This document shows, one piece after another, positions 11,915-52,820 of a stretch of 64,000 nucleotides of DNA. The stretch's first letter is position 1. Each line of letters starts with the position of its first letter. The stretch spans positions 1 to 64,000 of the forward strand of contig CALUJS010000003.1 in NCBI GenBank assembly GCA_944321015.1, in the 5' to 3' direction. A program made the position numbers and the translations under genes. This DNA is from an uncultured Phocaeicola sp. (lineage in GTDB: Bacteria; Bacteroidota; Bacteroidia; Bacteroidales; Bacteroidaceae). Under the pieces are notes generated by a model. It made no database searches, was not told the DNA's origin, and worked only from the letters and a program-made list of their open reading frames with translations.

Positions 11915-12263
11915 TTAAATGAATATTAATTATACATCTCGTAAAAGTCATGCTAAAATACGACAATTTTGCGAAACAGCGAACATTTTTGTCCCAAAAA
12001 CAACAAGCGTTTTTAACCCCAATCGGCCATTAGACTTTAGGAAGATTGCCTGCTTGTGTCTTGCAGATTGCTTTCCGCGTCGCCGAAGGCGTAGCGGGCT
12101 ACGTCGAGGCGGCACGGAAGGCAAAATGCCGACAGAAGCGGGCAAGATGCCTAAAGAGCTTCACCCCCGGAACAATAATGTACCTGATGCGGTCTGATGA
12201 CCGATTGGGGTTCAACCGACAGGACCGAGCCCGGGAGCGGAACGGAAACCGCCTTGAGCGGGA
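11915..12263. other. Non-coding part of gyrA-clpC gap
   Basis: No convincing gene. Short reading frames here are out of character with coding DNA. The only clear structure is the imperfect palindrome at 12070-12122, listed separately. A weak TATTTTAG box on the minus strand near 11955 may belong to the gyrA promoter. Confidence 0.5.
12070..12122. repeat. Long imperfect palindrome
   Basis: The left arm GCTTTCCGCGTCGCCG and the right arm CGGCACGGAAGGC fold back, with the inner arms GGCGTAG and CTACGTC, around a small GGG loop. The stem is about 24 pairs with a few mismatches. It resembles REP-type palindromes. It is not next to a gene end, so terminator function is unlikely. Confidence 0.5.
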
Positions 12264-12351
12264 ATATGGACGCCCGTGAGCGAAGATATGGCGGCTCGTG
12301 AGCGGACATATGGGCGCTCGCGTCCGTGCATATGGCGGCTCAACGGCCCCG
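12264..12351. repeat. 22-bp phased ATAT array B
   Basis: ATATGG cores start at 12264, 12286, 12308 and 12330, all exactly 22 bp apart. Interiors are variable and GC-rich (CGCCCGTGAGCG, CGGCTCGTGAGCG, GCGCTCGCGTCCG). The array lies between the divergent gyrA and clpC, about 130 bp upstream of the clpC start. Confidence 0.9.
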
Positions 12352-17195: not shown

Positions 17196-17216
17196 ATTGC
17201 CGCCACTTGTCGCTGA

Positions 17217-17308
17217 ATATGGACGCTCGTATGTGAACATATGGACGCTCGCAAGCGGGCATATGACCGCTCACGGCTGAGCATATGGGCGCACGGACGC
17301 GACCATAA
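17217..17308. repeat. 22-bp phased ATAT array C
   Basis: ATAT cores start at 17217, 17239, 17261 and 17283, exactly 22 bp apart, with a degenerate ATAA at 17305. It lies in a convergent gap right after htpG, so promoter function alone cannot explain the family. Confidence 0.9.
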
Positions 17309-21128: not shown

Positions 21129-21268
21129 ATTTCTTTTCCTATTCTGTTATAAACATGGCTATGACGGCGCAAATATAGGGAAAAAGAGGAGACAAAACAT
21201 CATAAACGGCTAACAAAAAAGAGAATGACCGTCGAAACATGTCCCTCCAAACGCCCCCGCGAGCCGCA

Positions 21269-21356
21269 ATATTCCCGCTCGCGAGCCGCAATATCCACGC
21301 CCGCGAGCGGCCATATGGAGGGACGCGAGCGGAGATATGGAGGCCCGGACGGGGGA
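21269..21356. repeat. 22-bp phased ATAT array D
   Basis: ATAT cores start at 21269, 21291, 21313 and 21335, exactly 22 bp apart. The first two interiors carry CGCTCGCGAG and CGCCCGCGAG blocks. It fills the tandem gap between corA (upstream on the minus strand) and the HAD gene, ending 20 bp from the corA stop. Confidence 0.9.
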
Positions 21357-21375
21357 AAACACAACGCTCGCCGGC

Positions 21376-23106: not shown

Positions 23107-24060
23107 TCATTTCACCACGTTCACGGGGTTTCCCTTGAGATACTGCTCCAGATTGTTCACCGCCAGGCCCATCAGGCGCTCGCGGGCATCGACGGAGGCC
23201 CAGGCCAGATGAGGCGTGATGAAGCAGTTGCGGGCCGCGAGCAGCGGATTGTCCGCCGTGGGAGGCTCGGTGGACAGCACGTCCACTCCGGCCGCGCGAA
23301 GCACTCCGTCGTTGAGCGCGGCGGCCAGGTCGGCCTCATTGACCAGCGGGCCGCGCGCCGTGTTGATGAGTATGGCCGTGGGCTTCATCAGGCGCAGCAG
23401 CGAGGAGTTCACCATGCCCGCATTGTCCGGCCGGAGGGGGCAATGGAGCGTCACGATGTCGCACTCGCGGAACAGCGTGGGCAGGTCGGCCTTCACCGCT
23501 CCGGCCGGGATATGGTCGATGTCGACCGACGTACACACGTAGACCTTCATGCCGAAAGCCCGCGACACGCGCATCACGGCGCGCCCGATGTTGCCCAGCC
23601 CCACGATGCCGATGCGCTTGCCGCTCAGCTCCATGATGGGCGAAAGGCAGTAGTTGAAGTCGCCCCGTGCGGCCCACTCGCCGCTGCGCGCCTGCCGTGT
23701 GTAGTCGGGGATGCGGTAGAGTATGTTCAGGATGTGGGCGAAGACGGTCTGCACCACCGAGTCGGTGCTGTAGGCCGGTATGTTGGTCACGGTGATGCCC
23801 AGGCGGCGCGCGGCCTCGATGTCCACCACGTTGTAGCCCGTGGCCAGCACGCCCACGTAGCGAAGGCCCTCCAGGCGGGCCAACATGTCGGCGTCGAGCG
23901 GCGTCTTGTTGGTCAGGAGCACCTCGGAGCCCCGCGCACGTTCAAATATTTTATCACTGCTCGTGCGGTCGTACACGGTGACGTCGCCGAGCTTTTCCAA
24001 TGCTTCCCATGACAGGTCGCCCGGATTGAGGCAATACCCGTCGAGTACGGTAATCTTCAT
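23107..24060 (-). CDS. D-2-hydroxyacid dehydrogenase
   Basis: NAD-dependent oxidoreductase of 317 residues. The Rossmann motif GLGNIG is at 154-159, with Arg-236 (NTARGP), Glu-265 (STEPP) and His-284 (ITPHLAW) as the catalytic set. It is most like the glycerate/hydroxypyruvate reductase branch, but substrate cannot be told from these residues. The ATG at 24060 gives MKITVLDGY. Directly upstream lies the 262-bp gap filled by the type 2 22-bp array, so the promoter of this gene, if not in that array, must be read through from rarA. Confidence 0.9.
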   Translation of the reverse strand: MKITVLDGYCLNPGDLSWEALEKLGDVTVYDRTSSDKIFERARGSEVLLTNKTPLDADMLARLEGLRYVGVLATGYNVVDIEAARRLGITVTNIPAYSTDSVVQTVFAHILNILYRIPDYTRQARSGEWAARGDFNYCLSPIMELSGKRIGIVGLGNIGRAVMRVSRAFGMKVYVCTSVDIDHIPAGAVKADLPTLFRECDIVTLHCPLRPDNAGMVNSSLLRLMKPTAILINTARGPLVNEADLAAALNDGVLRAAGVDVLSTEPPTADNPLLAARNCFITPHLAWASVDARERLMGLAVNNLEQYLKGNPVNVVK

Positions 24061-24122
24061 ATTATCAGTGTTTTATGTCGTTTCTAGTTGTTTCCTCGCA
24101 TTTCCTTCGGCGGGCGGCCGGA

Positions 24123-24316
24123 AAAACACGGTCGTGTTTCTGAAAAAAGACGGTCGTCTTTCCAAAAAAACATGCCCGTGTTTCCATCAAATCACGGCCG
24201 TCTTTCTGCACAAACACGGCCGTGATTTTCCGAGTAGACGGCCGTCTTTTTTTCGAATCACGGCCGTGATTTTTCAAGGAGGCGGGCGTGATTCCGGAAG
24301 TGTACGGTTGTTTTAC
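24123..24316. repeat. Type 2 22-bp array with ACGGCCGT cores
   Basis: Nine units with a central CGGNCG-like core starting at 24129, 24151, 24173, 24195, 24217, 24239, 24261, 24283 and 24305, each exactly 22 bp apart. Cores are short palindromes in A/T-rich flanks (AAACACGGCCGTGATT, AGACGGTCGTCTTT). Outer bases change in pairs: CAC goes with GTG, and GAC with GTC, in most units. It fills the gap between rarA and the hydroxyacid dehydrogenase start. Confidence 0.93.
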
Positions 24317-24322
24317 CACGGT

Positions 24323-25597
24323 TCACTCCTTGTAGCGTTCGCCCCAGAGGGCGGTCATGCGGTCGTGCAGGCGCGCTTCGGCGGCATTGTCCTGGGCGTG
24401 CCACAGGCGGATGTCCTGCAACTCGTCGGGCAGATACTGCTGGCGGACGAAATGGCCCGGGTAGTCGTGGGCATACTTGTAGCCGTCGTGATAGCCCAGC
24501 TCCTTCATCAGCTTGGTGGGAGCATTGCGCAGGTGCAGGGGCACGGGTTGGTTTCCCGTGCGGCGCACGGCGTCCAGCGCGGCGTCGATGCCCATGTAGG
24601 CGGAGTTGCTCTTCGGGCTGGTGGCCAGATAGACGGTGACTTCGGCCAGGGGGATGCGCCCTTCGGGCCAGCCAATCTTCTGCACGGCGTCGAAAGCGGC
24701 GTTGGCCAGCAGCAGGGCGTTGGGATTGGCCAGGCCGACATCCTCGGCAGCGGAGATGAGCAGACGGCGGGCTATGAACTTGGGGTCCTCGCCTCCCTCA
24801 ATCATGCGCGCCAGCCAATAGAGGGCGGCATCGGGGTCGCTGCCCCGGATGGACTTGATGTAGGCGGAGATGATGTCGTAGTGCATCTCGCCATCCTTGT
24901 CGTAGGCCAGCGGATTCTGCTGCAGGCGCTCCACGACTTTCGCGTCGGTGATGACCACGGGGTCGTCGTCGGCCGCCTCGACCACCAGCTCCAGGATGTT
25001 GAGCAGCTTGCGCGCGTCGCCGCCGGAGTAACGCAACATGGCGTCGGTCTCGCGCAGTTCGATGCGGCGTTTGGACAGTTCCGTGTCTTTTTCCACGGCG
25101 CGGCGGAGTAGCTTCAGGAGGTCTTCGCGCTCCAACGGGTGGAGCACGTAGAGCTGGCAGCGCGAGAGCAGCGGGCGGATGACCTCAAAGGAGGGATTCT
25201 CCGTGGTGGCCCCTATCAGGGTGACGATGCCTTTTTCCACGGCGCCCAGCAGGGAGTCTTGCTGCGACTTGCTGAAACGGTGGATTTCGTCGATGAAGAG
25301 TATGGGGCTTGCCTGCGAGAAGAAGCGTCCGCTGCGTGCCCGCTCAATGACGTCGCGCACGTCTTTCACGCCGCTGGTGACGGCGCTCAGGGTGTAGAAC
25401 GGCGTTTCGAGCCGGTGGGCTATGATTTGCGCCAGCGTGGTCTTGCCCACTCCGGGCGGCCCCCACAGTATGAATGACGGGATGCGTCCGGCCTCTATCA
25501 TCCGGCGCAGGACGGCTCCGGGCCCGACGAGGTGGGTCTGCCCGATATATTCGTCCAGCGTCGTCGGACGCATGCGTTCAGCCAAGGGTTGTGCCAT
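24323..25597 (-). CDS. rarA: RarA/MgsA recombination-factor AAA+ ATPase
   Basis: Clamp-loader-like ATPase acting at stalled replication forks. The 424 residues start MAQPLAERMRPTTLDEYIGQ. Walker A GPPGVGKTT is at 46-54, Walker [11 protein letters not shown] near 98-107, sensor 1 GATTENPSF near 130, and the C-terminal tetramer domain includes YWLARMIEGGEDP. Length is normal. The stop is directly followed by the type 2 repeat array. Confidence 0.95.
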   Translation of the reverse strand: MAQPLAERMRPTTLDEYIGQTHLVGPGAVLRRMIEAGRIPSFILWGPPGVGKTTLAQIIAHRLETPFYTLSAVTSGVKDVRDVIERARSGRFFSQASPILFIDEIHRFSKSQQDSLLGAVEKGIVTLIGATTENPSFEVIRPLLSRCQLYVLHPLEREDLLKLLRRAVEKDTELSKRRIELRETDAMLRYSGGDARKLLNILELVVEAADDDPVVITDAKVVERLQQNPLAYDKDGEMHYDIISAYIKSIRGSDPDAALYWLARMIEGGEDPKFIARRLLISAAEDVGLANPNALLLANAAFDAVQKIGWPEGRIPLAEVTVYLATSPKSNSAYMGIDAALDAVRRTGNQPVPLHLRNAPTKLMKELGYHDGYKYAHDYPGHFVRQQYLPDELQDIRLWHAQDNAAEARLHDRMTALWGERYKE

Positions 25598-28621: not shown

Positions 28622-28902
28622 TCCATGTTAAAAAACATATTTCCGCGCAATAAGTGTTGTTTTAACAACTCTACTCCCCAAACGACCGAACGAGTAACCA
28701 AAGAAAAGCAAAAAAACCGCCCGGACAAAATCAGTATCCGAAAAAATATTACTCCGAACGAAAGGGAAAAAGCCGAATAAACCATTTCCGTCCGACATCC
28801 GGAAAAAGTAAAGATGTAACCGCCGGAACGGATAAAGTAACAAAGCGTTCACCGGCGCATCGGAGACCGGAAATGTCGGACAAAGCACCCCCGCAAGCGC
28901 CC
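28622..28902. other. Non-coding A-rich gap before array E
   Basis: About 280 bp of A-rich DNA with scattered CCGGAA-type words. I see no gene or strong hairpin in it. Confidence 0.4.
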
Positions 28903-28990
28903 ATATTCCCGCCCGCGAGCGTCCATATTCCGGCTCATGAGCGCACATATCACGGCTTGCGAGCGTCCATATCACGGCTCAAGCCCGGCA
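28903..28990. repeat. 22-bp phased ATAT array E
   Basis: ATAT cores at 28903, 28925, 28947 and 28969, all 22 bp apart. Here the bases after ATAT are TC or CA instead of GG, yet spacing is unchanged. It sits about 120 bp upstream of the glnS start. Confidence 0.9.
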
Positions 28991-29074
28991 TTTGAGGGCG
29001 CAATCCGACGGCAAAATCAGCAAATCCCGTTCATTTATTCATGCGCAGATGAACAGCATACGAAAAAGAATCAC

Positions 29075-38370: not shown

Positions 38371-38487
38371 AAGCCATCGCGTTTACAGGCAAAGGTAAAC
38401 GCTTTCGGCGAAGAACGGAAACGGAAAGGGGGACTATTTCAACCCAAATCGGCCTAATGACCTCTAAGTTCAAGCATTTTTGCCGCA

Positions 38488-38597
38488 ATATGACGCGGCG
38501 TGTCCGTCCATATGGACGCTCGAACGCCGACATATGGACGCCCGAACGCCGGCATATGCCTGCGGCCGGCTCGCAATATGGCGGCTTCCGACCCCTC
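38488..38597. repeat. 22-bp phased ATAT array F
   Basis: Five ATAT cores at 38488, 38510, 38532, 38554 and 38576, all exactly 22 bp apart. Interiors vary (ACGCTCGAACGCCG, ACGCCCGAACGCCG, CCTGCGGCCGGCTC). It starts about 118 bp upstream of the kinase gene and ends just past the terminator of the orphan riboswitch transcript. Confidence 0.92.
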
Positions 38598-38776: not shown

Positions 38777-38829
38777 AAGTCGAGTTGTTCATTCGTCACG
38801 TGCTTCACCTCTTTCCTCGAGGGGTGAAT

Positions 38830-39000
38830 ACCTTTGGTGCAGCATGGCAGGTCTTCTGACTCGTTTCCGTGAGCGGCGCCTTCCCGGTCGTCACCGACCA
38901 GTGGCAAAAGTGGTTGCCCTCACGATTCATATAAACTTACAGCAGCGGGACTGTTCAGGACTCTCACCTGATTCCCTTTTAATCGCTCCCCTGAAAAGGT
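38830..39000 (-). ncRNA. Cobalamin riboswitch
   Basis: All core blocks are present in order on the minus strand: GGGAATCAGGTGAGAGTCC and CAGTCCCGCTGCTGTAAG (38937-38977), the GCCACTGG block (38898-38905), the GGGAAGGCGCCGCTC stem, and the B12 box AGTCAGAAGACCTGCC (38846-38861). Such elements bind adenosyl- or other cobalamins and repress B12 uptake or synthesis genes. No B12 gene follows: the next 190 nt hold only tiny frames and end in a terminator. Confidence 0.93.
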
Positions 39001-39018
39001 TTGCGAACCAATGCACGA

Positions 39019-39049
39019 CAAAAGTAGGCGTTATTTTCAAACCGCCAAA
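39019..39049 (-). promoter_or_regulatory. Consensus promoter of the cobalamin riboswitch
   Basis: Minus strand: TTTG (39046-39049), 19 bp, then TACTTTTG (39019-39026). This is a full match to the Bacteroidetes -33/-7 consensus. Transcription should start near 39012, just before the riboswitch. Confidence 0.8.
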
Positions 39050-47872: not shown

Positions 47873-48027
47873 GAGACTGCGTGTAACAACGGTGTATCGC
47901 GCGCATTACATCGCAAGCACAAAACCATTACAAACACATTTCGCATCTATCCCCCCTATACCTTAATAATATAGAAGGGGAAGACACGCCCACGCGCCAC
48001 GGACGGCACGCCTGCGCCCAAGCGTCC

Positions 48028-48115
48028 ATATGTCCGCCCGCGAGCGAACATATCACGGGACACGAGCGAACATATGCCGCGTCACGTCCATCCATATGCC
48101 CGCTCACGGGCCGTC
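48028..48115. repeat. 22-bp phased ATAT array G
   Basis: ATAT cores at 48028, 48050, 48072 and 48094, all 22 bp apart. It lies in the 406-bp divergent gap between the two phosphoesterase paralogs, between their two promoter boxes. Nothing else notable is in this gap. Confidence 0.9.
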
Positions 48116-52593: not shown

Positions 52594-52710
52594 AGTCAGA
52601 TTCGTTCTTGATTTTGCGCCCAAAGTTAGCGTAAATATGCCGGATGTACAACCCCCTCCCGAATGATTAGCCTTTGGGACAAAGGGAAGCAAACCGGCAC
52701 AGCCGCGCCC

Positions 52711-52820
52711 ATATGCACGGACGCGAGCCTCCATATGCACAGTCACGAGCGGACATATGCCCGGAGGCAGGCCTCCATATGGACGCTCAAGACCGTCCAT
52801 ATCAGCCTGATGACGACCGG
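52711..52820. repeat. 22-bp phased ATAT array H
   Basis: Five ATAT cores at 52711, 52733, 52755, 52777 and 52799, all exactly 22 bp apart. It lies in the 312-bp tandem gap between the Spy-like gene (upstream on the minus strand) and the clostripain-like gene. A terminator hairpin follows it at 52832. Confidence 0.92.

Follow-up and report, generated by a model that had tools for sequence, protein, structure and literature searches.

High-copy intergenic repeats of bacterial chromosomes are usually explained as REP/RAYT elements or as MITEs. Iterons of plasmid origins, such as the 22-bp repeats of R6K, are tandem sites about 22 bp apart that place the initiator on one face of the helix, and the tandem operators of cooperative regulators such as HipB and BldC consist of sites, two-fold symmetric or direct, that are two turns apart. 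Within the Bacteroidales, the BrickBuilt MITE of Porphyromonas gingivalis is intergenic and present in 19 copies built of 23-nt tandem units, with a leader and a tail that carry terminal inverted repeats (PMC4596501).

Here, we analyse an array of nine 22-bp units found in a 64,000-nucleotide stretch of DNA (the window), together with the class of arrays to which it belongs. The genome of the window is designated G000, and congeners are designated G003 (its nearest relative), G008, G010 and so on.

Results

The array lies at about positions 24120–24317 of the window, in a gap of 262 bp (265 bp with the stop codon) between two genes on the minus strand. One encodes a D-2-hydroxyacid dehydrogenase (23107–24060) and the other the AAA+ ATPase RarA/MgsA (MgsA_C/AAA; 24323–25597), which is 83% identical to proteins of uncultured Prevotella/Prevotellaceae and whose stop codon is 5 bp from the array. 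By this rarA similarity the genomes studied here are assigned a place near Prevotella. As the preliminary description had it, nine ACGGCCGT-like cores follow one another at exact 22-bp steps, beginning at 24128+22k (k = 0–8). Units 1 and 2 carry the core ACGGTCGT (24128–24135, 24150–24157), unit 3 carries ATGCCCGT (24172–24179), units 4 to 7 carry ACGGCCGT itself (24194–24201, 24216–24223, 24238–24245, 24260–24267), and the degenerate cores of unit 8 and of the end unit 9 are GCGGGCGT (24282–24289) and ACGGTTGT (24304–24311). The consensus unit is approximately WWWSACRRYYGTSWWW plus a 6-bp link. The flanks were likewise described correctly as A/T-rich, the left side being rich in A and the right side in T. 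Chance is excluded as the origin of this periodicity: when the window was scanned without bias over lags, with a threshold of 28/44 matches, lag 22 gave eight arrays and no other lag more than two, and the reversed control of the two-core pattern was without a match in the G000 genome.

According to the preliminary description, the lack of a second such array in the genome would suggest one local tandem duplication. This family, termed type B, in fact occurs at two further loci in G000 (C4:21954–22265 and C41:10837–11051) and at two in G003 (C52 and C81). The rarA and dehydrogenase genes are adjacent in all 14 same-genus genomes read (own included), and the gap between them measures 11–134 bp in the 13 others compared with 265 bp here, stop codon included. 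In G003, where it is 127 bp long, this gap contains three weak units (ACCGGCGT, ACGACTGT and ACGGTAGC) whose 22-bp spacing was counted by hand. The additional loci in the two genomes, together with this remnant, thus show that the window array is not a single local duplication. The exact 22-bp register holds in every type B array. By eye, type B arrays have no evident common flank except for C4a with C4b, and at several loci they lie close after stop codons. In viral contigs the type B pattern found 13 matches, mostly 11-bp CAACGGACGTT repeats that are not type B, and phage and plasmid collections gave no match to the arrays. In viral contigs L319, L325, L320 and L327, TACGGACGTA cores were seen three times at 22-bp steps.

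Type B is a minor family of a larger, genus-wide class of 22-bp arrays. In a sample made up of stretches of draft assemblies, with genes called by a simple ORF caller of our own, 460 kb of G000 contained 50 arrays at lag 22, the next best lag giving 15. The main family of G000, type A, is built on CATATG. Its paired pattern matched 399 and 439 times on the two strands of the genome compared with 3 and 1 for the control, while viral contigs were without a match; by extrapolation from pattern pairs that overlap, the genome holds about 200–300 type A arrays. In the window, type A arrays are located at 2512–2582 (three ATAT units), 12236–12349 (in the gap upstream of a clpC-like gene), 17203–17296, 21235–21367, 28875–28996 (upstream of a glnS-like gene), 38479–38588, 48004–48115 and 52691–52811. 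A cobalamin riboswitch (RF00174, 107 bits; 38829–39028, minus strand) lies about 240 bp from the array at 38479–38588. Elsewhere in G000, one type A array, with nine ATAT units, is unusual in its length and uniformity (C3:75359–75586, or L141:11359–11586), and a third kind of 22-bp array, with a core near ATAAGGCTTAT, adjoins a type A array (C2:67672–67814, or L139:7672–7814).

Local replication slippage would make each array an independent, functionless minisatellite. The units are indeed tandem, type A units are slightly more similar within arrays than between them, and in other Bacteroidales heptad-based (7/21-bp) tandem repeats occur after rarA (L059, L084, L085, L089, L102), in four of the five directly from its stop codon. 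However, one family recurs at many loci, exactly four ATAT units are present in 34 of the 44 sampled type A arrays, and the period of 22 holds across unrelated sequences and through mosaic arrays, other periods being rare. Slippage is thus a quite improbable origin.

Arrays in G000 are intergenic in 47 of 49 cases by our ORF calls, with median distances to start and stop codons of 127 and 48 bp, respectively. Successive arrays are 9.75 kb apart on average, or roughly one array in 9.8 kb, and their spacing is more regular than that of random gaps (CV 0.64 versus 0.88, P about 0.01). Divergent gaps hold 17 of the 47 intergenic arrays, and co-directional gaps with an array are longer than those without, even after the length of the array is subtracted.

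In the congeners the 22-bp architecture recurs, but in sequences that are unrelated and exclusive to one species. The G003 family (GAAAGGA) gives 114/82 matches to its paired pattern in its own genome and zero or one in others, and the G008 family (AAACAN4TGTTT) gives 292 and at most two, respectively; further 22-bp cores are found in G010, G006, G005, G012, G017, G023 and G050. Period 22 stands out in most congeners sampled, although G009 had no array within the 80 kb sampled. Beyond the Prevotella-like genomes, 923 kb around rarA from other Bacteroidales contained few lag-22 arrays, and those seen were in Prevotella-like records. In G010, a 21-bp array (L162:14390–14493) has variable spacers complementary to the spacers two units away, and inverted-repeat ends.

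Sister species can differ in the family that occupies an orthologous gap. Where G000 has the type A arrays at 28875–28996 and 38479–38588, the same gaps of G003 contain the G003 family. Among 38 gaps conserved between the two genomes, seven have an array in G000; by a strict lag criterion, three of these seven also have one in G003, compared with none of the 31 others (P = 0.004). By a motif-count criterion, chosen after the strict-lag result had been seen, the G003 family is present in five of the seven and in one of the 31 (Fisher P = 2e-4). This comparison is confounded by a preference for divergent gaps, since all five doubly occupied gaps are divergent, in a sample with eight divergent gaps, and joint occupancy may be no more than that preference.

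In G008, a single array passes from AAACACAAGTGTTT to AAGTATAATACTT with the 22-bp register kept. Two long mosaics (L236:8376–8693 and L237:8514–8816) combine two or three palindromes in one 22-bp register and are roughly symmetrical, with one possible 1-bp slip. The 61 G008 sites have seven different inner 4-mers beside 55 distinct spacers, and such near-invariant cores next to variable spacers suggest that selection acts on the cores. Only one of 27 exact sites lies outside an array. An ordered plan of four units is repeated in many copies and in both orientations, and two copies are similar into their flanks, which shows that whole elements have been copied.

Such copying is also what would be expected of a non-autonomous mobile repeat (REP/MITE-like) without a host function, whose palindromes would be the sites of a transposase-like enzyme and whose insertions outside gaps would have been purged. 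We consider this explanation possible. The species-exclusive families of high copy number, the short rarA gap of the other 13 genomes and the precedent of a MITE with 23-nt tandem repeats (BrickBuilt; PMC4596501) are in its favour as well. However, inspection by eye found neither common terminal inverted repeats nor target duplications, and no mobiliser was found. The Y1/RAYT transposase domain (PF01797) occurs once in G000 and once in G003 and is absent from array-bearing G008 and G010, and a RAYT-type REP is not supported. Moreover, near-invariant cores with fast-changing spacers fit ongoing selection better than dead copies.

The preliminary description had taken two-fold symmetry to be under selection because the outer bases of the palindromes seemed to change in pairs. 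We examined 44 type B units in a fixed register, from G000 (window, the two C4 blocks and C41) and G003 (C52 and C81); units inside one array are not independent, and several P values in the analysis are nominal. The C/G column reads CG, GC, CG, CC, CG, GC, CG, GG and TT in units 1 to 9 of the window, of which six are matched. Over all 44 units, matching occurs in 18 compared with 19.3 expected, and the paired changes are thus not borne out. Instead, the base in this column tends to be the same as, rather than complementary to, the one in the half of the next unit that faces it (CC 19 and GG 8 among 38 links), and the two bases at the centre match below chance (9 units compared with 20.6 expected). 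The degeneracy of the units, S (C or G) in one column, W (A or T) in the next and R/Y at the centre, resembles a pattern read through DNA shape or the minor groove rather than base pairing. The type B family therefore has a symmetric consensus without compensatory evolution: the symmetry itself is genuine, and it is the argument from paired changes that fails for this family. In type A arrays, too, several columns show fewer matches between the halves than chance would give. In G008, 59 of 61 sites have a matched inner pair, which may reflect either selection or the inheritance of two types of site. The five type B arrays have a common polarity from A runs to T runs, a significant gradient among arrays that may be copies of one another. 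The idea that type B arrays are inverted-symmetric as a whole was set aside, its link-by-link test being weak.

Hairpins of RNA or single-stranded DNA would offer another reason for palindromes, with the array serving as a bidirectional terminator, an mRNA stabiliser or a processed RNA. The window array does fold well relative to dinucleotide shuffles (z -5.3 and -5.9), several type B arrays are near stop codons, and their flanks are A-rich and then T-rich. This long-hairpin signal disappears when the reference is column-shuffled arrays: z is +0.85 and -0.25 for the window and averages -0.32 for type B. One type A array has a z of -0.24. Two G008 arrays that scored strongly against column shuffles did so artefactually, because they contain a mixture of two palindromes. 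The absence of compensatory change in type B and the many arrays in divergent gaps also speak against hairpins. A scan with a terminator consensus found no terminator, and Rfam had no match above the gathering score at the window array. Of the dimer site or hairpin offered in the preliminary description, the dimer site is thus the best reading and the hairpin is disfavoured; we regard it as very improbable.

Discussion

We tentatively propose (probability roughly 0.4) that the units of the array form a row of sites, each bound by a dimer of a sequence-specific DNA-binding protein, and that the array belongs to a genus-wide class that is copied as whole elements. Each two-fold symmetric site of about 16 bp would be separated from the next by two helical turns (22 bp), such that dimers could stack along one face of the helix. 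Within each genome, the 22-bp-phased intergenic arrays would have been copied in their entirety from place to place, and the recognised core would have been swapped between sister species. Symmetric sites at integral helical spacing, the feature of tandem operators, are found here as an exact 22-bp register with a symmetric consensus, and it is this geometry that suggests a cooperative dimer. Putative elements of this model are the protein, its dimeric state and cooperativity, and a role as an insulator or nucleoid-type site at the boundaries of transcription units. Three observations lead us to prefer protein sites that spread as elements: G008 combines near-invariant cores with variable spacers, the register is kept through mosaics, and arrays are placed at transcription-unit boundaries. 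The two readings, rows of dimer sites and mobile repeats, are compatible, and both may be true.

Several observations run against rows of dimer sites. A few hundred sites that change sequence between congeners would be hard to accommodate in an ordinary regulon, the A-to-T polarity of type B is not predicted by a simple row of identical sites, and the halves of type A match below chance at several columns. No candidate cognate protein was found for the predicted sites. A more speculative extension, which we think unlikely, is that arrays about 10 kb apart mark transcription-unit boundaries, their positions partly kept while their cores are replaced, as part of a fast co-evolving protein–site system. 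By analogy, such a system in this Prevotella-like genus would be a bacterial parallel of fast-evolving centromeres or PRDM9-type recognition.

If bound by protein, the arrays would constitute a system for organising or insulating the chromosomes of abundant gut bacteria, as well as a natural experiment in which a DNA-binding protein changes together with its numerous sites. If mobile, they would be a new class of repeats. On either reading, the regular array DNA could be used as a probe for its binder.

No earlier description of the 22-bp array class was found in openly accessible literature, and this genus-wide class is apparently undescribed. In contrast to the usual repeats, these arrays keep one rhythm of 22 bp, or two helical turns, although each species has its own exclusive sequence. 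BrickBuilt is similar in being from the Bacteroidales, always intergenic and present as non-identical copies of near-equal unit length at many loci (PMC4596501). However, its unit is 23 nt and its copies number 19, whereas here the unit is exactly 22 bp and copies reach a few hundred; its leader and tail have terminal inverted repeats, of which none were recognised here by eye; and P. gingivalis is the one species for which it is reported, in contrast to the separate family present in each species here. REP, BIME and REPIN elements with RAYT share high-copy intergenic palindromes, species-specific families, mosaics and proposed roles in DNA topology (PMC2817692, PMC3116915, PMC3733652). They differ in their GTAG/CGTC tag, which was not seen by eye in the array units, and in lacking the strict 22-bp head-to-tail register of short units found here; the RAYT domain, in turn, is absent from two array-bearing congeners. 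Plasmid iterons are also tandem sites about 22 bp apart, but the present arrays are chromosomal, number up to a few hundred loci and have no adjacent initiator gene at the loci examined. Tandem operators of the HipB and BldC type likewise have two-fold or direct sites two turns apart; unlike them, the arrays described here far exceed the copy number of a usual regulon, almost never occur as solitary sites in G008 and have their core replaced between congeners.
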